The notes below the pieces were generated by a model. The model did not search any database. It saw nothing but the letters and a program-made list of their open reading frames with translations, and was not told the origin of the DNA. From positions 1 through 28,534 of IMG/VR virus record IMGVR_UViG_3300028840_001281: 28,534 nucleotides of DNA. One strand, 5' to 3'. Of the stretch, positions 2,887 to 21,552 are shown piece after piece. This stretch comes from a virus. The translations under genes and the position numbers were made by a program. Every line of letters starts with the position of its first letter. Within the stretch, counting starts at the first letter, position 1.

Positions 2887-3068
2887 TGGCAAAAATTAAT
2901 GTTACTTTCCCAGAACCTAGTGTTTTAGAGCGTCCTGGTACCAATGCTCATGCTCAACTAATTGAGGCCTTAGATTCACAAAAATTACAATTAAACTTTT
3001 CTTTTCAAGATGAACTTAAACAAGAATTACAAAGATTTACTTGGTTTAATATAAGGATGGGTTGTTAA
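2886..3068 (+). CDS. small conserved-type phage protein, unknown function
   Basis: A 60-aa protein whose ATG overlaps the upstream stop (TAATG) and whose own TAA overlaps the next ATG in the same way, strong evidence for a translated operon member. It has a short beta-like N-terminus (M-A-K-I-N-V-T-F-P-E-P) followed by a helical, Gln/Leu-rich middle. I do not recognise a family. Its place between the large tail protein and beta-rich structural genes suggests a virion or assembly role, but this rests on context alone. Confidence 0.6.
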   Translation: MAKINVTFPEPSVLERPGTNAHAQLIEALDSQKLQLNFSFQDELKQELQRFTWFNIRMGC

Positions 3069-3841
3069 TGTCTTGTAATAATGTAAACTTTCAAAGTCCT
3101 TTTGATCTTGATGTTTCTAGTGGAGCTTTATCTCCTAGCTATAAACAAATTTATAAATTTGGAACAAATGCTAGTGTTGGAAATAGTGTAGAAACTATTT
3201 GGCAACAAGGAGGACTTTACTCTTATCCACCAAGTGCATCAACTATGACAGTATCAAGTTCGAATGTAAATGATACCTCTGCTGGAACAGGCGCAAGAAC
3301 TGTTGAAATTTTTGGATTAGATGCAAGTTATAATGAAGCTAGTGAAACTATAACTTTAAATGGTCAAACAGCAGTTACTACCGTTAATACCTATATTAGA
3401 ATGAACAGAGCCATAGTTCTAACAGCAGGATCAGGTGGAGCAAATGCTGGAAATATTTATGTAGGCACAGGAACTGTTACAGCAGGAGTACCTGCAAATA
3501 TTTATACAATAATTAATGGAGATGGTAGTAATCAAACATTACAATGTTTTTGGACAGTACCTGCGGGTTACACTGCATATGTTTATCAAACAAATATTTC
3601 AACAGGTACAGCATCAGCGACTCCTGCTATCCTAACAACTTTTTTAGTTGCAAGACCTTTTGGTGGAGTCTTTAATACAAAAGAAGTCATAACTATAAAT
3701 AGTGGAAATCATTTACAAGATTATAGTTTTCCACTTAAATTAACCGAGAAAACAGATATAGAGTTTAGAGCTGAATCTAGTTCTGCTGCTGTGAGTTTTA
3801 ATGTATCTGCTTCTCTAAACATATTATATACACAAAACTAA
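3068..3841 (+). CDS. beta-rich virion structural protein
   Basis: The ATG at 3068 (TAATG overlap with the previous stop, AAGGATGG upstream) is preferred over a TTG two codons earlier, giving 257 aa. The protein is dominated by T, S, G, N and alternating hydrophobic residues and lacks charged helices, as in beta-sandwich or jelly-roll virion proteins. The middle (I-F-G-L-D-A, then E-T-I-T-L-N-G-Q) and late W-T-V-P-A-G-Y-T-A segments look like strand-turn repeats common to fibre or decoration proteins. The next gene starts inside its stop codon. The precise structure (tail, fibre or head decoration) cannot be decided from sequence alone. Confidence 0.65.
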   Translation: MSCNNVNFQSPFDLDVSSGALSPSYKQIYKFGTNASVGNSVETIWQQGGLYSYPPSASTMTVSSSNVNDTSAGTGARTVEIFGLDASYNEASETITLNGQTAVTTVNTYIRMNRAIVLTAGSGGANAGNIYVGTGTVTAGVPANIYTIINGDGSNQTLQCFWTVPAGYTAYVYQTNISTGTASATPAILTTFLVARPFGGVFNTKEVITINSGNHLQDYSFPLKLTEKTDIEFRAESSSAAVSFNVSASLNILYTQN

Positions 3842-4360: not shown

Positions 4361-5286
4361 ATCCACGAGGTGGTACCGAGTTACAATTAGAATATCTATA
4401 TAAATATGTAGATAATAAATTATTAGATCAGGTTCAGATTACAACTTCTGTACCTGAAAAAATACCTTTACATCCAACCAAGTTAAATATCTTATGGCAA
4501 AAAAATTCTTATGATCAACAAAATTTAATGCCTTGGTTTAAGGATAAAAATAACCATCATAAATATGATTGGTATGTTTTTAATTCACATTGGAATTATG
4601 AAAACTTTAGAAAAGTTTATGATCTACCAACCGGTCGTTGTTTAGTTATTAAAAATGGTATTGATAATATTACCCCGCGTAATATTGATAAACCAAATAA
4701 ACAAATTAGAATTATTCATCAACCAACACCTTGGCGAGGTTTAGCTGTTTTATTAGGAGCTATGCAACTAGTTAAAACAGACGTTGTTTTAGATGTTTAT
4801 TCATCAACACAAGTTTATGGTGATGCCTTTAAAGCCGCAAACGATAAAACCTTTGAACCCTTATATGCTCAAGCAAAAGAATTACCGAATGTTAATTACA
4901 TTGGTTACAAACCTAATGAATACATTAAAGAACATTTAAAAGACTATGACATGTTTGTTTATCCATCGATTTGGGAAGAAACATTTTGTATTTCGGCTTT
5001 AGAATCTATGGCCGCAGGTCTTTATACGATTGTTACCAATTATGGCGCTCTGTATGAAACTTGCGCTGAATATGGTGTCTATGTACCTTATGATAATAAC
5101 TATCGTCGTTTAGCCCAAACCTTCGCTGACGTTATTGATCAAGCATCAACACATATTCATAATGAAGGTGTTAAACAACATCTTAAATCACAGGTACAAT
5201 ATATTAATCATTTTTATAATTGGAAACGAGTAGCGGGGAACTGGAATAAGTTTTTACAAGGAGCATTAAATGCAAGAAAACATTAA
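4357..5286 (+). CDS. GT4-type glycosyltransferase
   Basis: A 309-aa GT-B fold glycosyltransferase. It opens with N-P-R-G-G-T-E-L, the glycine loop typical of phage GT4-like enzymes. The C-terminal half has the donor-binding signature: V-Y-P-S-I-W-E-E-T-F-C-I-S-A-L-E, with the E-x7-E pair at residues 208 and 216, and the following M-A-A-G-L. The middle N-G-I-D-N segment is also typical. The enzyme would transfer a sugar from a nucleotide-sugar donor; the acceptor is unknown. It overlaps a second glycosyltransferase by 17 bases, so the two may act in series on virion glycans or on a host surface target. A GC-rich patch near the 3' end (5227-5244) resembles one at 20856. Confidence 0.85.
   Translation: MNPRGGTELQLEYLYKYVDNKLLDQVQITTSVPEKIPLHPTKLNILWQKNSYDQQNLMPWFKDKNNHHKYDWYVFNSHWNYENFRKVYDLPTGRCLVIKNGIDNITPRNIDKPNKQIRIIHQPTPWRGLAVLLGAMQLVKTDVVLDVYSSTQVYGDAFKAANDKTFEPLYAQAKELPNVNYIGYKPNEYIKEHLKDYDMFVYPSIWEETFCISALESMAAGLYTIVTNYGALYETCAEYGVYVPYDNNYRRLAQTFADVIDQASTHIHNEGVKQHLKSQVQYINHFYNWKRVAGNWNKFLQGALNARKH
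5227..5244. repeat. GC-rich patch similar to 20856-20873
   Basis: Fifteen of 18 bases match the patch at 20856-20873 in the UvrD-like gene (shared core GTAGCGGG and ACTGG). Both encode R-V-A-G-x-W, so a chance protein similarity with matched codons is possible. Confidence 0.3.
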
Positions 5287-6142
5287 GCCTATTTGGTTCA
5301 ATAAAAATCAATCAATTAAAATTGATGTTAGTAAAGCATTGTATAAAATATGGGTTGCTACACCTGTTCATAGTGAAGTTTCAATTCACTATGCTCAAGC
5401 CTTACTTAAATTTCAACAACAATGTATGCGGAATAATATTATCTGTAGTTTTTCTTTATTAAAATCATCCTTAGTAACACAGGGTCGAAACCTATGTGTG
5501 GCTAATATGTTAGCAGCAGAAGATATTAAATACACTCATTTATTGTTCATTGACTCTGATATTGATTTTGATTTTGAAACAATTTGGAAAATGCTGCAAT
5601 TTGACAAAGATGTTATTGCTTGTCCTTATCCCATGAAACATATTAATTGGGATACTATTTGGAAAAAAATACAAGAAGGTAAAATTAAAAGCAAAGATGA
5701 TTTAATGCGCGCTGGTTATATCTATCCTATCAAAGCAGAGAACCATACGGGTACTCATATTACTTTTGATAAACCAGGGCTTATGGAATTAAGTCATGTC
5801 CCTACTGGTTGTACTTTATTTAAACGAGATGTATTTGAAAAAATGATAAAACATTATCCTGAATTAAAGATTAATCAACCTACTATTGTTAATGGTATTG
5901 CTAAAGAACATCCCTTTATGTATAATTTTTTTGATACAATTCATGAACCAACTACTAAAAAATACTTTGGCGAAGACTTTGGTTTTTGCAAATTATGGTC
6001 AGAAATGGGTGGTAAATCCTATGCTTATATCGCAGATGATATTAGTCACGTTGGTGAGTATCAGTTTAGAGGTAAATTAATGGATTATATTGATTTTGAG
6101 CAACCTACTAAAACCATTGACGAAGTTAAAAAAATCAAATAA
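5270..6142 (+). CDS. GT2-like (GT-A fold) glycosyltransferase
   Basis: A 290-aa protein starting 6 bases after AAGGAG. The pattern V-A-T-P-V-H-S near residue 30, then Q-G-R-N-L, H-L-L-F-I-D-S-D-I-D-F with the D-S-D metal motif at residues 95-97, and D-V-I-A-C-P-Y-P-M-K is that of phage GT-A glycosyltransferases related to the ANP1/MNN9 group. The late E-D-F-G-F-C segment could supply the catalytic acidic residue. It follows and overlaps the GT4-like enzyme, suggesting a two-step glycan pathway. Substrate unknown. No secretion signal, so it acts in the host cytoplasm. Confidence 0.85.
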   Translation: MQENIKPIWFNKNQSIKIDVSKALYKIWVATPVHSEVSIHYAQALLKFQQQCMRNNIICSFSLLKSSLVTQGRNLCVANMLAAEDIKYTHLLFIDSDIDFDFETIWKMLQFDKDVIACPYPMKHINWDTIWKKIQEGKIKSKDDLMRAGYIYPIKAENHTGTHITFDKPGLMELSHVPTGCTLFKRDVFEKMIKHYPELKINQPTIVNGIAKEHPFMYNFFDTIHEPTTKKYFGEDFGFCKLWSEMGGKSYAYIADDISHVGEYQFRGKLMDYIDFEQPTKTIDEVKKIK

Positions 6143-9858: not shown

Positions 9859-12800
9859 ATGGCGGAATTCGTACCTCTAATTCCAGCAGAAGAAAATAAT
9901 GATACCAGCTGGTACACTGCTACGGCTGCAGGTATTGCTTCAGGTATAATTAAAGTTCCTGAAGGTATTGTTTCTTTAGCTGCAGAATTAATTGATCTTG
10001 GACTTGACAGCAATAAAGCTGCTGAAGTTGAAAAATTTTTTGATAAAATAAATCCTTTTGAAGAAGTTGCTGATGATCGAGCGATTGGTAAATTAACCGA
10101 AGCTTTAGTTTCCATTGGTATACCAGGCGCTGCCGGTTTCAGGGCAGCAACTAAACTTGCTGATAAAGCATTAAAAGCTAAAAGAGCTGGTACTTACGCT
10201 AATTTAAAATCAAAAAATTTAATGGCTTCTTCAAGAAGAGCCAAAGAACTAAATAGAAAAGCCGGTTATCAAAAATTTGCTGCCGGTGTTTTTGGTGGTG
10301 CTGCAGGTGAAGCTTTTGTTGCTGACGTTGAAGAGATTGGAACTTTTGGTGATCTATTAGGTGGACCAACTGATTTAGATCGAGATGAATATTTAGAAGG
10401 ACGACCTGATGCTATTAGAAAACTTTTAAATAGAGTTAAGTTTGGTTCTGAATCTTTATTCATTACACCTTTTGTTGCTGGCGCTGGTAAAGGAGCAAAG
10501 GCACTCGCAACGCGAGGCGCGGAACTTGCTTATAGTGATAATAAATTTTATCGATGGATTGATAGATATGTAGGTGCACCTTTTAGACCAAGAGGAGATT
10601 TACCACAAGAAGTTTTTTTATCTGAGATGAGAAAACAAGGTCTAAAATCTAAAGATATAAATCGAGCTAAACAAATCGTTAATCAAATAACTAAAATAAC
10701 GGATAAAATGTTTCCAGACATTCAAAGTGTTTTTGATAAATCTGTTAGAAGTGAAAGAGAACAATTTCTTAAAAAATTAAATGATGCTTTGTTTGGTGGT
10801 GATTTAAGAAAAGGTATATCAGGTAAACAAATAGATGAAATTGTTGATGACATGAAAGCAAAAAACATGACTGAAGTTGAACAACAAAATATTGTAACTA
10901 GTCTAAACGAAGCAAGATTAGAAATGACTGGTTTAGTTGATGTCTTAGATAGAAATTTAAAACTAGGTGTCAATGTTAAAAAAAGCACTAAAGATTTACA
11001 GGAAATTTTAAAAGAAAGAATTCAATCTTGGGTAGGCACAACCTATAAAATTTATGAACATAAAAGTGGTTTATTTAATTTGTTCAGAAGTTATAAGCCA
11101 ACGGATGAAGCTTATACTAAAGCCGTTAATTTATTTAGACGATATATTGCTAAAAACGATAAAACAAGAAAAACACCTTTTGATCAGGATAGTACCGAGT
11201 ATGTTGAACAAGCAAGATCTATAGTTGATGATATTTTAGATCAAGTAGAGAGAAAAAAGAAACCAGGAATGTTGCCAGATTTTACTTACATTAATAAAAC
11301 TTTAGATGGTCAAACAACTAAATCATTTGAAAAATTAGCTGGAAAAGGTTCTAAAGTATTTAGAGAATTGTTTGGTGAAATACAAGATCCAAGATATTCA
11401 ATCTTTAATGCCATAACTAATTTATCAGCTGTTAGTCGAACTTTAGCTTATTTAGATGATGTTGCTCTTAAAAATGATGATGTCATTGCTAAAGGTGGCC
11501 GAGGATTTTTCTGGGCCAATGAAGAAGCTGCTAAACAAGCAGTTAGGCAAGCAGATACTGGTATAGAATTAGTAGAAATGGATGATGTAATTTCTCTATT
11601 ACCTGGTATGAAAAATTTTAACAATCCTTTACAAGGTAAATGGACAACTAGAGAAATTGCCGATGGTATAAAAAATGCGAACGATATTGCTAGTGGTTTA
11701 TCAGCATTTGTTAGAGGAAGAGAAGCAGCTAGTGGAGCTGAAAAAGCCGTTAGTTGGTTTTATAGAAATTTATTATTAGTTCCAAAAGGAATATCACAAT
11801 TAGCAAAAACAGTTTTATCAATTCCAACTCACATACGAAACTTTTTAAGTGCGGGTGCTTTTGCTGGAGCCAATGGAGTTTTATTTGAAAACCCAAAATT
11901 ATTTGCAAAAGCGTTTCAACAAGGAATTGATGTTTCAGGTTTATTAAAACTAGGTGACAATAGTCCTCAAGCACAAAAAATTTATAACGAATTAGTTGAA
12001 TTAGGTGTCGTTAACTCACAAGTTCAAATTGGAGATTTAAAAGCTTTATTAAGAGATGTTCGATTTGGAGAACAATTAAATAATACCGATGCTATTTTAC
12101 GACCTATGATGGCTAGATTAAAAAAATTAGGTCAATTCTTTCAAGGTAAATATGTGGCAGAAGATGACACTTGGAAAATAACTAACTATGTTGTTGAATT
12201 AAATCGAATACATAAAGCACGAGCTAAACAAGCAGGAAAGTCAGTGGATGAATTCTTGGAGGGTTTAGGTGAAGTTGAACAAAGAGCTTTAAAAGAAGAA
12301 GCAGCAACTATTGTTAAAAATACTGTTCCTAATTACGCTTACGTAGGTTCAGCTGTTAAAACTTCTAGATTATTACCAATTGGTAATTTCATGTCTTTTC
12401 CTTCAGAGATGTTAAGAACTACAACAAACATTGCTGAACAAGGTATTAAAGAATTAAAACATTCAAGACCCACAAGAGGCAGTAATATAACACCTGTTGT
12501 TTTTGAGATAGGTAAAGGTTTTGTAAAAAATGATGCTATTGCAAGAGGTACTTACGGTACTGGTTTTAAAAGAATATCTGGAATGGCAGTAACGGTTACA
12601 GGAGTTCCTGTTGCTGTGACTGAAGGTGCGAAAGCATTGTATGATGTAACCGAAGAAGAAATAGATGCTTTACGACAATTTGTTCCTGAATGGTCAAAAA
12701 ATTCTACTCTTATTCCAATTAGAGATGATGATGGTGAATTAAGATACATAGATTTCAGTCATAGTAATGCTTATGATGTTATTAGTCGACCTTATAGAAC

Positions 12801-13842
12801 ACTTATAAATAATATCTTAGAGGGACAACAAGACGGTGATACTTTACTTTCAGGTTTTGTTAGTGGTGTTAATGAAGCTAGTGCAGAAATAATGAATCCA
12901 TTTATATCTGAATCTATCTGGACAGAAGCTATTACAGATTTAACTGTTAGAGGAGGAATAACTCCAGAAGGAAGAAGACTTTACACAGATCAAACTTCTG
13001 CCGGTGATAAATTAGCTATTAGATTTTTACATTTAGGGGAAGCTCTAGCGCCTTCTTACAAACAATTTCAAAGACTAGGTCAAGCTGCATTCGGTATACC
13101 TACTAAACGAGGAGAAGAATTAGATATAGGACCTGAACTTGCGGGCTTTATGGGTTTACGACCAATTAAAGTTAATCCACTAGAATCAATGGGTTTTAAA
13201 ATTGCAGAATATCAAACAGGTATTCGAAATGCCCGAAGAGAATTTACTGGTGGTTATTTTGGTTTATTAAGAGGAGGTCGAGTAACTCCTAATGAAATTA
13301 TTGAAAGATATTTACTATCTAACGCAGCTAGATTTAATGTTCAAAAAGAAATGTATAAAAATATTAATGCAGCTGGTGTTTTAGGTGTTAATCCATCTTT
13401 ATTAAAAAGAGAATTTGATGATAGACAAATTAGTGCAAAAACTTTTAATCAATTAAGGCGAGGTAGATTTGATCCTTATTTCCCTTCACAAGATATTCAA
13501 GATAGGTTTAGAGAAATAGCAGCTAATCTAGGTGAACTTAATCCTTATAAAGAAGCAGCGCCTATTTTAAGATTGATTAGAAACGATTTAAGACAACTAG
13601 ATTTAGGTAGTAATTTTGATTTAAAACTAGAAGATTATTTGCTTGAAGATATTAGTTTACCTGCTCCGCAAACATCACAACTTACACCAAGTCCTGATGT
13701 TATTACGCAAGGACAAAATATATTAGGTCAGGGACAAGCATTAGCACAAGGTATAACTCCATCTGGCTTGACACCAACTGAAGAAGCGTTATTATCAGAC
13801 GAAGAAAAATTAATCCGACGTAGACAAAGAGGACTCGTATAA
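9859..13842 (+). CDS. giant internal virion (DNA-ejection) protein
   Basis: At 1327 aa this is the largest gene in the window, with an ideal AGGAGG ribosome site. It has Ala/Gly-rich hydrophobic segments near the N-terminus (A-T-A-A-G-I-A-S-G, A-G-V-F-G-G-A-A-G), long charged helices, and a Gln/Pro-rich tail (residues ~1275-1310). It occupies the place of the large T7 gp16-type ejectosome protein in podoviruses: after other internal proteins, at the end of the virion module. I see no clear lysozyme or transglycosylase motif. No tape-measure gene is evident, which fits a short tail. A GC-rich hairpin lies inside at 10504. The assignment rests on size, composition and position. Confidence 0.6.
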   Translation: MAEFVPLIPAEENNDTSWYTATAAGIASGIIKVPEGIVSLAAELIDLGLDSNKAAEVEKFFDKINPFEEVADDRAIGKLTEALVSIGIPGAAGFRAATKLADKALKAKRAGTYANLKSKNLMASSRRAKELNRKAGYQKFAAGVFGGAAGEAFVADVEEIGTFGDLLGGPTDLDRDEYLEGRPDAIRKLLNRVKFGSESLFITPFVAGAGKGAKALATRGAELAYSDNKFYRWIDRYVGAPFRPRGDLPQEVFLSEMRKQGLKSKDINRAKQIVNQITKITDKMFPDIQSVFDKSVRSEREQFLKKLNDALFGGDLRKGISGKQIDEIVDDMKAKNMTEVEQQNIVTSLNEARLEMTGLVDVLDRNLKLGVNVKKSTKDLQEILKERIQSWVGTTYKIYEHKSGLFNLFRSYKPTDEAYTKAVNLFRRYIAKNDKTRKTPFDQDSTEYVEQARSIVDDILDQVERKKKPGMLPDFTYINKTLDGQTTKSFEKLAGKGSKVFRELFGEIQDPRYSIFNAITNLSAVSRTLAYLDDVALKNDDVIAKGGRGFFWANEEAAKQAVRQADTGIELVEMDDVISLLPGMKNFNNPLQGKWTTREIADGIKNANDIASGLSAFVRGREAASGAEKAVSWFYRNLLLVPKGISQLAKTVLSIPTHIRNFLSAGAFAGANGVLFENPKLFAKAFQQGIDVSGLLKLGDNSPQAQKIYNELVELGVVNSQVQIGDLKALLRDVRFGEQLNNTDAILRPMMARLKKLGQFFQGKYVAEDDTWKITNYVVELNRIHKARAKQAGKSVDEFLEGLGEVEQRALKEEAATIVKNTVPNYAYVGSAVKTSRLLPIGNFMSFPSEMLRTTTNIAEQGIKELKHSRPTRGSNITPVVFEIGKGFVKNDAIARGTYGTGFKRISGMAVTVTGVPVAVTEGAKALYDVTEEEIDALRQFVPEWSKNSTLIPIRDDDGELRYIDFSHSNAYDVISRPYRTLINNILEGQQDGDTLLSGFVSGVNEASAEIMNPFISESIWTEAITDLTVRGGITPEGRRLYTDQTSAGDKLAIRFLHLGEALAPSYKQFQRLGQAAFGIPTKRGEELDIGPELAGFMGLRPIKVNPLESMGFKIAEYQTGIRNARREFTGGYFGLLRGGRVTPNEIIERYLLSNAARFNVQKEMYKNINAAGVLGVNPSLLKREFDDRQISAKTFNQLRRGRFDPYFPSQDIQDRFREIAANLGELNPYKEAAPILRLIRNDLRQLDLGSNFDLKLEDYLLEDISLPAPQTSQLTPSPDVITQGQNILGQGQALAQGITPSGLTPTEEALLSDEEKLIRRRQRGLV
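10504..10516. repeat. short GC-rich hairpin CTCGC-AAC-GCGAG in coding region
   Basis: Arms CTCGC and GCGAG flank a 3-base loop, followed by GCGCGG. CTCGCAAC is shared with 2292-2299. The patch stands out from flanking AT-rich codons and encodes A-L-A-T-R-G-A-E. Confidence 0.4.
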
Positions 13843-18127: not shown

Positions 18128-18150
18128 GATTATAATATAAGCGAGTGGAA

Positions 18151-19671
18151 ATGGACGATCTAGAAAGATTTAAAGAGATATTTAGTGGTTTAAGCACTGC
18201 CTATGGTGTCACTAAAAAAACTAATGAATTTGATGCCCGAGGTAAACACAAAACAAAATCGTTTATCTTTAAAGAAAAACCAGCTAAACATTTATGGCAA
18301 GCTCATTTAGATGGTAAAGAACCTGCTTTAGGTATTATTCCAATTAATGAAGACAGTAAATGTCGTTGGTCTTGTATTGATATTGATCTTTACAATGGTT
18401 TTGATCATCAACAATTAATTAAAAAAATAAGAGACAAAAATTTACCTCTAGTTGTCTTTCGATCAAAATCAGGAGGCGCCCACGTTTTTTTATTTACTAA
18501 AGATTTTGTTCCTGCTTCTTTATTACGGGATAAACTAAAAGAAATTGCTTCCGTATTAGGCTATGCTAAATCAGAAATTTTTCCAAAACAAAATATTTTA
18601 CGGACAGATAGAGGTGATACCGGTAGTTTTTTAAATTTACCTTACCATAATTGTAAAAATACTATGCGTTATGCTTTTAATGATAATGGCGAAGCTCTAA
18701 CACTACATGGTTTTTTTAGTTTCTATGAAAAGAAAAAACAAACTGAAGAACAAGTTTTAAGTTTAATTATAAAAAAAGAAGAAAAGAAAGATGACTTATT
18801 AAAAGGTGCTCCACCTTGTTTAATCTCTTTAGCAAATGAAGGTATTCCCAATGGTCAAAGAAATAATGCTATGTATAATTTTGGTGTTTATTTGAAAAAA
18901 AGATTTCCTGAAAGTTGGCAAACAGAAATATTTGAATACAATAAAAAATATTGCCTACCTCCATTAGATAAAAAAGAAATTGATATTTTAATTAAATCAA
19001 TTGATAAAAAAGATTATAATTACAAATGTAAAGATGAACCCATCGCATCTTTTTGTAATTCGACAAAATGTGTTTTTCAAGAGTTTGGTGTAGGTGATGG
19101 TGGTCCAGGTCCTGAAATAAAAGAATTAAAAAAATATGAATCGGATCCACCTATTTATTATGTATTAATTGGTGAAGATACTGTTGAAGTTGACATCAAT
19201 ACTTTATTAGATCCTTTTAAATTTTCTGTAGCCTGCGCTGAACAAATCAATCAACCTATTGCGACTGTAGGTCGAAACATCTGGATCAAGATGTTACAAA
19301 AATTATTTAAAGAAATGATTCCAATTCCAGCGCCAGAGTCTACTAAAATAGATGTTCAATTAAAAGAATTGCTAGCTGAATTTATAACTAAATCAACAGG
19401 TAAAGAAAAAGAAGATATTTTAAGAGGACTAACTTTTACTGAAGAAGGTAAAAGTTATTTTAAAGCAAAAGATTTCTGGGACTTTTTACAAAGAAAGAAA
19501 TGGAATTTAAGTAAACACAAAACCATTCGTTTATTAGAAACTTCTTTTGATGCTGTTTTTCCTAAATTAAGAATTAATAAAAAAGAACAACGAGTAACTG
19601 AAATAAAAACAATGAAATTAGATAAACCAAATGTTCGTACAACCAAACTTAAGAAACCAGATTTTGCATGA
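18151..19671 (+). CDS. archaeo-eukaryotic-type (AEP) DNA primase
   Basis: I start at ATG 18151 (GAG five bases upstream) rather than GTG 18145, giving 506 aa. The N-terminal catalytic domain has the AEP signature: C-I-D-I-D-L-Y with the metal-binding D77 and D79, then S-K-S-G-G-A-H-V-F-L-F with the nucleotide-binding S/H near 107-111, as in primases of the TOTE/plasmid type. A helical PriCT-like segment follows (N-G-Q-R-N-N-A-M-Y-N-F-G, ~residue 232-243), with a Cys pair region near 285-305. The C-terminal third is probably a helicase-binding or DNA-binding module. It lies upstream of the UvrD-like helicase (ATGA overlap), suggesting a primase-helicase pair. Confidence 0.85.
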   Translation: MDDLERFKEIFSGLSTAYGVTKKTNEFDARGKHKTKSFIFKEKPAKHLWQAHLDGKEPALGIIPINEDSKCRWSCIDIDLYNGFDHQQLIKKIRDKNLPLVVFRSKSGGAHVFLFTKDFVPASLLRDKLKEIASVLGYAKSEIFPKQNILRTDRGDTGSFLNLPYHNCKNTMRYAFNDNGEALTLHGFFSFYEKKKQTEEQVLSLIIKKEEKKDDLLKGAPPCLISLANEGIPNGQRNNAMYNFGVYLKKRFPESWQTEIFEYNKKYCLPPLDKKEIDILIKSIDKKDYNYKCKDEPIASFCNSTKCVFQEFGVGDGGPGPEIKELKKYESDPPIYYVLIGEDTVEVDINTLLDPFKFSVACAEQINQPIATVGRNIWIKMLQKLFKEMIPIPAPESTKIDVQLKELLAEFITKSTGKEKEDILRGLTFTEEGKSYFKAKDFWDFLQRKKWNLSKHKTIRLLETSFDAVFPKLRINKKEQRVTEIKTMKLDKPNVRTTKLKKPDFA

Positions 19672-21173
19672 GTGAAAGAATAATTATACCCGGTCCACCA
19701 GGAACAGGCAAAACCCATAGACTTATTCATTATTTAGATAAAGAATTAAATGAATATAAAACCGACCCTATTAAAATTGCTTTTATATCTTTTAGTAAAG
19801 CAGCTGCAGAAGAGGCCAAGCGAAGAATAAATAATGATAAAATTTTTGCGGGTACTATGCATTCGTTAGGTGCTCGTAGTTTAAGTATTGATACTAATTC
19901 ACAATTACTTAAAGGTAGTAAATGGAAAACGTTTAAAAATTTTTCTGTTATTTGTCAGCATTTATCTTTTGAAAGTTATGTTACTGAAACTGGTATACCG
20001 CAATATAAAAATCATCATATGAAGATAATTGAATATGCTCGTTCAAAAAAACTAACGTTAAACGATGCAGCCATTGAACTAGGTCTACAATATAGTGTTG
20101 ATATATGGTTTACCGAACAATTAGCAGAAGATTTAAAAGCATACAAAGAACAAGAAAATATGTTTGAATTTTCTGATATGATTACCAAGTTTGTTGAGAA
20201 AGATAAATGTCCTCCACTCGACGTTGTCTTTCTCGATGAAGCTCAAGATCTAAGTCCTTTGCAATGGGATATGTTTTTTTACATCGAAGAACAATGTAAA
20301 AGATCATACATTGCAGGGGACGATGATCAAACCATTTATAATTTTCAAGGTGCTAATCCTGAAATATTTATTAATTTGAAAGGAACTTTTGATCCGCAAA
20401 TTAAATCAAGACGAGTTCCAAGAAAAATACACCAACTAGCAGAATCTATTTTTCCTCACATGACAGAGCGTTTAGATAAGAAATGGGAACCAAGAGATGC
20501 TGAAGGTGAAATTGAGAACAATGTCAGCTTAGAAGATTTAGATTTTACTACCGGTCAATGGATGATTTTAGCTAGAACTAATGAGAAACTTAAACCTATT
20601 GCTGAACATTTAACAAGACAAACAATTAGATTTACAAGTAAGATACAAAACCTTTTATCAAAAGAATTATTGAATGCTTATCGAACTTGGATTCGTTTAA
20701 ATGCCGGTGCTTTAGTTAGTAAAGAAGATGCACAGGATTTATATAAATTTTTAAACTATAAAAAAGGTCATGTTGAGTATGGTTTCTCTGGAGGTAAATC
20801 TTTAAATACTGTTGAGAATGTTGATCTAGATACTTTGCGTCTCGAGCACGGGTTGCGCGTAGCGGGAGACTGGGAGCAATTGCATATTCCAGAAGAAAGT
20901 AAAAATTATATGAAAGCTTTAATTGATTCAGGTGATGATTTAATGAAAGAACCTAGAATTAAAGTATCTACTATTCATGGAGTAAAAGGAGAAGAATGTG
21001 ACAATGTCGTTTTACATACAGATTTAGAAAAAATTATTTATGATGCAGCCTTAAAAAATGCTGATCCTGAACATAGAACTTTTTTCGTTGGTGTGACTAG
21101 AACAAAAGAAAAATTATTTTTAGTGAGACCAACATCAGAATATAATTATACCATAGGAGATCCTATTGTATGA
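19668..21173 (+). CDS. UvrD/Rep-like SF1 DNA helicase
   Basis: A 501-aa SF1A helicase starting in the primase stop (ATGA). Motif I is G-P-P-G-T-G-K-T (residues 9-16), Ia A-F-I-S-F-S-K-A-A, motif II V-F-L-D-E-A-Q-D, motif III G-D-D-D-Q-T-I-Y-N-F-Q-G-A, then V-S-T-I-H-G-V-K-G-E-E (motif V) and F-V-G-V-T-R-T-K-E (motif VI). It is shorter than cellular UvrD (~720 aa), as the 2B-type domain is reduced. It unwinds DNA with 3'-5' polarity in known relatives. No DnaB-type helicase is in the window, so it may be the replicative helicase. A GC-rich patch sits at 20837-20873. Confidence 0.93.
   Translation: MSERIIIPGPPGTGKTHRLIHYLDKELNEYKTDPIKIAFISFSKAAAEEAKRRINNDKIFAGTMHSLGARSLSIDTNSQLLKGSKWKTFKNFSVICQHLSFESYVTETGIPQYKNHHMKIIEYARSKKLTLNDAAIELGLQYSVDIWFTEQLAEDLKAYKEQENMFEFSDMITKFVEKDKCPPLDVVFLDEAQDLSPLQWDMFFYIEEQCKRSYIAGDDDQTIYNFQGANPEIFINLKGTFDPQIKSRRVPRKIHQLAESIFPHMTERLDKKWEPRDAEGEIENNVSLEDLDFTTGQWMILARTNEKLKPIAEHLTRQTIRFTSKIQNLLSKELLNAYRTWIRLNAGALVSKEDAQDLYKFLNYKKGHVEYGFSGGKSLNTVENVDLDTLRLEHGLRVAGDWEQLHIPEESKNYMKALIDSGDDLMKEPRIKVSTIHGVKGEECDNVVLHTDLEKIIYDAALKNADPEHRTFFVGVTRTKEKLFLVRPTSEYNYTIGDPIV
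20837..20873. repeat. GC-rich patch with inverted GTCTC/GAGAC arms
   Basis: Bases 20837-20846 (GCGTCTCGAG) equal the core of the palindrome at 1704-1713. GTCTC (20839-20843) and GAGAC (20866-20870) are inverted arms. Bases 20848-20873 match 8064-8089 (21/26). It encodes L-R-L-E-H-G-L-R-V-A-G-D-W. Confidence 0.45.
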
Positions 21174-21184
21174 TTAAACCGATT

Positions 21185-21295
21185 GGGTGTAATGCGGTGA
21201 CCTTGGGGAATGTGGTAGTTTCCTGTCTTCGGGCGAAGTTGGTTCAGTTGCGTTATACCCTGTTTTCATTAACTGTTAAACCAACATCTACCACA
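21185..21295 (+). ncRNA. candidate pseudoknotted structured RNA / 5' leader element
   Basis: The 139 bases between the helicase stop and the DUF3310 gene are GC-rich for this genome (31 of 60 bases G+C at 21181-21240). Helix A pairs 21185-21195 with 21250-21260 (11 bp, two of them G-U). Helix C pairs 21239-21244 with 21279-21284, stacked on D, 21245-21249 with 21271-21275, with a 3-base bulge. Strand 3' of A begins directly after D, so A and C/D make an H-type pseudoknot with a zero-base junction and a 10-base crossing loop. An outer 8-bp helix pairs 21211-21218 with 21288-21295. A small CTTC-GGGC-GAAG hairpin lies at 21227-21238. The ribosome site (AAGGAG) follows 7-8 bases later, so a regulatory leader is plausible. 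No known class is recognised. Confidence 0.6.
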
Positions 21296-21312
21296 AATAA
21301 AAAGGAGAAAAT

Positions 21313-21552
21313 ATGACACATAAAGACATGTTTAAAGAATACAATTATGATTCTTTACAAGAACAAGTAGGTGGAAAACATTATAAACATTTTAAGATTC
21401 AACCTGCTTATTTTATAAACGAGAATAAGTTGCTTTTCGCAGAAGGTAATGCTATTAAATATATTTGTAGACACCGGACGAAAGGAAAAGAAGAAGACAT
21501 TAAAAAAGCAATTCATTATTTAGAAATGATATTGGAAAGAGATTATGCCTGA
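21313..21552 (+). CDS. DUF3310 (T7 gp1.7-type) protein
   Basis: A 79-aa protein with an AAGGAG ribosome site. The whole middle matches the DUF3310 family: Q-V-G-G-K-H-Y, then I-Q-P-A-Y-F-I, A-E-G-N-A-I-K-Y-I-C-R-H, and K-G-K-E-E-D-I-K-K-A-I-H-Y-L-E-M. T7 gp1.7 contains a related domain in a nucleotide kinase, so a link to nucleotide metabolism is possible, but these short versions are uncharacterised. It is the first gene after the structured leader and overlaps the methyltransferase by 8 bases. Confidence 0.9.
   Translation: MTHKDMFKEYNYDSLQEQVGGKHYKHFKIQPAYFINENKLLFAEGNAIKYICRHRTKGKEEDIKKAIHYLEMILERDYA

Follow-up and report, generated by a model that had tools for sequence, protein, structure and literature searches.

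A candidate pseudoknotted RNA without an Rfam match, preserved by matching mutations at gene junctions of distant phages

To our knowledge, the structured RNAs of uncultivated phages have been little explored. The put RNA of phage HK022 consists of two simple stem-loops in the early leaders, with no pseudoknot, and antitermination RNAs of this type have conserved helices and act in cis on the transcript, whatever gene lies downstream. The Rickettsia palindromic elements are short structured insertions that spread between loci and keep reading frames open; they form simple hairpins and reside inside genes. The manA and wcaG motifs are structured RNAs nearly confined to marine metagenomes and cyanophages, where they occupy the 5′-UTRs of metabolic genes, and a pseudoknot has been suggested for manA (PMC2864571).

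The element described here was found in a 28.5-kb virus record of an uncultivated phage (the window, meaning the whole stretch of DNA analysed), in a gene row that runs from a UvrD-like helicase through DUF3310 and a methyltransferase to a family A DNA polymerase; Table 1. The spacer between helicase and DUF3310 measures ~140 bases and has a raised GC content, and the folded RNA occupies ~110 bases of this junction. The element differs from manA and wcaG in being optional and in its location, which is either among replication genes or just after an HNH gene. Its pseudoknot sets it apart from the put RNA, to which the likeness is an analogy of action only. In contrast to the Rickettsia elements, it sits in gene junctions, carries a covarying pseudoknot, and is present in one copy per record. 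It resembles homing endonuclease cargo in the junction that it shares with them, in its ATGA entry point, and in its optional and patchy presence, but it carries RNA and has no nuclease of its own.

Table 1. Coordinates of the element, its helices, and the neighbouring genes in the window.
Feature	Position	Strand	Basis or remark
UvrD-like helicase, upstream gene	19668..21173	+	Pfam UvrD-helicase, E 1.6e-26
48-codon open frame overlapping helicase stop and DUF3310 start	21170..21316	+	open in all lineages; no conserved protein
P1 5′ strand (pseudoknot helix), GGGUGUAAUGC	21185..21195	+	11/11 pairs with 21250-21260; covaries in four other lineages
P2 5′ strand, UGUGGUAG	21211..21218	+	GUGGUAG invariant in all lineages
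P3 hairpin	21222..21233	+	minimum-energy fold; sequence and length vary among lineages
P4 5′ strand, GUUGGUUCAGUU	21238..21249	+	GUUGGUUCRG invariant except R
P1 3′ strand, GCGUUAUACCC, within P4 loop	21250..21260	+	P1 pairing and covariation
Crossing loop of H-type pseudoknot, 10 nt	21261..21270	+	sequence; 10-16 nt in relatives
P4 3′ strand, 3-nt bulge UUA at 21276-21278	21271..21285	+	one A-U/G-C exchange
P2 3′ strand, CUACCACA	21288..21295	+	pairs with 21211-21218; conservation, predicted fold
Shine-Dalgarno-like AAGGAG for DUF3310, outside fold	21302..21307	+	sequence
DUF3310 gene, downstream	21313..21552	+	Pfam DUF3310, E 1.2e-09

Inside the outer helix, P2 (8 bp in the window), lie a hairpin that varies among lineages, P3, and a helix with a bulge, P4; the P4 loop and the 5′ leader pair to form P1. 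Most of this layout had been anticipated by the original prediction, which placed a GC-rich fold between helicase and DUF3310 genes, just ahead of the DUF3310 ribosome site. Both neighbours were confirmed by Pfam matches, the AAGGAG lies 6 nt beyond the end of the element, and the GC content of the core is 45.9%, compared with 33.2% for the window, which puts the core in the top 1.8% of same-size stretches. P1 is present as predicted, all 11 of its pairs being standard and two of them G-U, and so is the 8-bp outer helix. The predicted P4 (21239-21249 with 21271-21284, including a 3-base bulge) was recovered together with an additional pair, G21238-C21285. The P4 5′ strand abuts the P1 3′ strand, giving the zero-base junction that had been claimed, and the 10-base crossing loop was likewise found in the sequence. 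The tetraloop hairpin proposed at 21227-21238 fared less well: a small hairpin is predicted, but its minimum-energy version pairs 21222-21225 with 21230-21233, the proposed version uses G21238 of P4, and the sequence of the hairpin is not conserved among lineages. The helices cross in the manner of an H-type pseudoknot and are kept in relatives, with P1 covarying and P4 invariant apart from one compensatory pair.

Relatives were collected from IMG/VR by a helicase-protein scan, which yielded 80 loci, and by pattern scans. The same virus recurs in another sample and is identical over the aligned element and flanks. A diverged element follows the helicase stop in L087, L089, and L090, and most other loci of the helicase scan have none. 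The pattern scans added L378, L418, L410, and L417; L378 and L410 came from a pattern that demanded part of P4, though not P2, and the invariance of P4 is therefore partly due to ascertainment. A final scan of all IMG/VR with the pattern GTTAAACCAACATNTACC returned ten stretches, eight of which are real elements, and pattern matches in L166, L167, L169, L170, L172, L173-L190, L191, L415, and L416 proved on inspection to be chance. Eight elements are thus available beyond that of the window, one of them the identical copy, and the comparisons below refer to only five lineages and nine sequences, the window and its copy being counted separately. A covariance model run over ~2.7 Mb of loci and 33 whole records revealed no further members, and no record searched held a second copy. 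Absence from relatives had been named as evidence against the element; most relatives do lack it, but it is kept in four other lineages.

Conservation within the element is uneven. The segments GUGGUAG, GUUGGUUCRG, and CYGUUAAACCAACAUCUACCAC are invariant in the five lineages, except for a single R/Y (A-U/G-C) exchange, so that the frozen parts comprise two 7-bp helices (P2 and the P4 base) and a 3′ block of 22 nt. Even between the window and L418, whose flanking helicases share only 33% identity, the RNA helices do not differ. The sequence of P1 differs in each lineage whereas its pairing is kept, with 54 of 55 pairs standard (11/11, 11/11, 13/13, 10/10, and 9/10 by lineage) and two to four pair types in each of the ten shared columns. 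When the leaders and P4 loops of the five lineages were paired in all 120 permutations, the cognate set ranked best, with a mean of -18.0 kcal/mol compared to -11.0 kcal/mol for non-cognate combinations. Comparison with shuffled sequences gave single-lineage P values for P1 of 0.014 (window), 0.015 (L087), 0.037 (L378), and 0.025 (L417). The P1 of L410 is the least certain, as it contains one G-G mismatch and is, taken alone, not better than shuffles (P = 0.33). Comparison of the sequences thus showed P1 to be held by compensatory change. Covariation had been proposed as the test of both pseudoknot helices, with homologues devoid of it counting against the RNA; P1 passes in five lineages, whereas P4 is nearly invariant and offers one compensatory pair. 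P2 and P4 appear in the predicted fold of four of the five lineages, and since no change occurs in P2 or in most of P4, their pairing is deduced from complementarity, without covariation.

Searches against known RNAs and genomes returned no counterpart. In gathering mode, Rfam gave no family match for the window and four other loci, and a permissive search of four elements produced weak, inconsistent matches, none above chance. The manA (RF01745) and wcaG (RF01761) covariance models were unmatched both at the gathering score and among the weak matches, in agreement with the original prediction, which had assigned the fold to neither; its description as an unclassified pseudoknotted RNA is supported by the covariation and by the lack of an Rfam match. 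The preQ1-II riboswitch (RF01054) was rejected, its two matches scoring 16.9 and 18.6 bits (E = 3.9 and 0.6) against a gathering score of 47 bits, with no weak match in L378 or L417. HDV-like and integron attC layouts, compared by eye, do not fit. ARAGORN identified no tRNA or tmRNA gene in the window. The element was not found by blastn in 50,697 phage records (window, L087, L417, L410, and L378 elements as queries) or in 72,556 plasmids (L087 element); with short conserved blocks included, the sole matches were to DUF3310 coding sequence, to a neighbouring gene, or by chance. An 18-nt piece of the 3′ block was absent from both strands of 399 + 297 genomes (696) from two bacterial phyla, indicating that no sequence widespread in those hosts matches the block exactly. 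A literature search of open papers, incomplete in coverage, found no account of the element.

The distribution of the element was examined at 162 helicase/DUF3310 junctions. In 139 of these the genes overlap directly, usually by ATGA; the remainder consists of seven rows with the RNA (six contigs of three lineages), 13 with small genes, and three with a short gap. The small genes include some for zinc-ribbon-like proteins and, in L080, one for a LAGLIDADG protein (E = 5e-7), while the HNH/EndoVII-like proteins of L016, L075, and L047 were recognised by eye only, without confirmation by Pfam. On the helicase tree, the RNA label requires at least two changes, which are forced by well-supported branches. 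In L410 and L417, the element instead lies directly behind an HNH_3-like gene, and is followed by a methyltransferase-like gene or DUF7220, in place of the DUF3310 gene found downstream in the other three lineages. The element was thereby shown to be optional, and to have entered the helicase/DUF3310 junction at least twice, in addition to the separate site behind the HNH gene. Such a patchy phylogeny with two unrelated sites is that of a mobile element, and the two origins at one junction, together with the HNH-gene site, indicate that it moves between phages and is not bound to one gene. Insertion occurred at the ATGA overlap, where neither a target-site duplication nor an enzyme of the element's own was seen.

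Could the fold be a chance product of ordinary spacer in a single phage? The nested energy of the element is no better than that of shuffled sequences (z = -0.63 for the whole, and z = -1.54 for the core, not better than chance), as this would predict. The evidence that the element exceeds chance is comparative, namely the fold kept in four other lineages and the P1 permutation test, and chance folding, to which next to no credence was given, is refuted by homologues in which the architecture, the invariant helices, and the covarying pseudoknot recur. A small protein gene, with the RNA complementarity incidental, was judged very improbable. In its favour, a frame of 45-62 codons, with VKPTSTT close to its end, is open in all five lineages, in each of which the other two frames are stopped, its start codons overlap the upstream stop, and the site holds small genes in other phages. 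However, the 5′ strands of P2 and P4 are read in differing frames in different lineages, with an unrelated mid-peptide, so the constraint is not on a protein; the third-codon positions of the VKPTSTT block, like the synonymous positions of the 3′ block, show no change, P1 covaries, and the peptide has no match in PHROGs. The openness itself is weakly unusual: with the variable parts shuffled, the frame stays open in 26-48% of cases per lineage, a product of 0.008 for a frame that was selected after inspection. Preservation of the 48-codon frame at the expense of the helices, which had been named as a sign against the RNA, was not observed; the helices are kept and the frames differ. Selection for an open frame, which could for example let ribosomes continue into the following gene, is a weakly supported possibility. 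The P2 start reads AUG-UGG-UAG or GUG-UGG-UAG after a G-rich run in the window (21210-21218), L087, and L378; this start-Trp-stop is missing in L410 and L417 and is probably due to chance. Frameshifting was discarded, as a U-UUU-UUA run precedes P1 in L087 only, and in the wrong frame.

Control of the directly downstream gene in cis by a riboswitch or translational switch, as suggested for DUF3310 in the original prediction, would suit the position of the window element, which stops 6 nt ahead of AAGGAG, and structured 5′-UTR motifs such as manA and wcaG are known in marine phages (PMC2864571). The suggestion did not hold up well and is considered improbable, given that 139 of the 162 related junctions do without the element and that the association is not with one gene (DUF3310, methyltransferase-like, or DUF7220). 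Furthermore, the Shine-Dalgarno sequence lies outside the fold (L378 has no recognisable one), there is no terminator, and the invariant nucleotides are mostly helical rather than arranged as in a ligand pocket. The main rival, on account of the homing genes that keep company with the element, is a selfish, homing-associated element of no use to the phage, whose outer helices would be recognition ends, as RNA or folded single-stranded DNA, for a recombinase or homing endonuclease acting in trans. This explanation is unlikely, though to be taken seriously: the same junction also receives homing genes, an HNH_3-like gene lies directly 5′ in L410 and L417, presence is optional and arose at least twice at one junction, and invariant helix strands would suit recognition as DNA. 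Against it, P1 is wholly different in each lineage while the rest is fixed, which is unexpected of a recent copy, and its G-U pairs are RNA-like; no target-site duplication was identified, no searched record holds a second copy, and no endonuclease gene was recognised adjoining the element in the window record.

The reading preferred here, given about an even chance, is that of an undescribed structured-RNA family, an optional and horizontally spreading module at gene junctions of uncultivated tailed phages, which acts as RNA and probably uses its invariant helices to bind a conserved partner. Neither an excess of promoters nor a terminator was seen at the element, suggesting that the RNA is probably made within the operon transcript. 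P2 and the P4 base are frozen on both strands and P1 is free to change if paired, which points to P1 as scaffold and to the P2-P4 helix as the recognised part; the pseudoknot would then present the invariant P2-P4 double helix and the UUA bulge to the partner, for which a host or phage protein or ribonucleoprotein is the likeliest candidate. This lopsided conservation, two sequence-frozen helices beside one that changes while pairing, suggests that a specific partner is bound, and it opens the proposal to direct testing. The function would be accessory and not tied to the neighbouring gene. It might be exerted in cis on the polycistronic mRNA, by way of antitermination or of the processing or translation of that mRNA, or else in trans, as a processed small RNA or decoy. 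The varying downstream gene makes a switch for that gene unlikely, and fits better with an effect on the transcript in general, or with a trans-acting processed RNA; a free-standing RNA is possible. The frame open through the element in all five lineages leaves room for its translation to play a part. More tentatively, the element may represent a new, horizontally exchanged RNA class that takes the place of the small protein genes found there in other phages, and in which the invariant helix, mounted on the covarying pseudoknot, binds and redirects a deeply conserved host machine; RNA polymerase, the ribosome, or a nuclease may be the machine redirected during infection. The findings indicate that accessory slots for small genes and homing endonucleases can hold RNA instead.

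Several further observations concern the surroundings of the element. In the window, the gene just 5′ of the helicase (18145-19671) encodes a primase that has an AEP-TOTE domain (E = 1.4e-12), and positions 9859-13842 encode a 1327-aa protein with no PHROG match. In other phages (L016, L075, L047, and L080), the helicase/DUF3310 junction appears as a cargo slot, filled by small zinc-ribbon genes or by putative homing endonucleases. The methyltransferase-like gene directly 3′ of the element in L410 (1038-1577) has an NPPF motif and no Pfam match; it is missing in the otherwise similar L417, suggesting that the site after the element also gains genes. The L417 phage is rich in homing-type genes, and a LAGLIDADG protein (5006-5398) and an HNH_3-like gene (3057-3779) are located less than 3 kb from its element.
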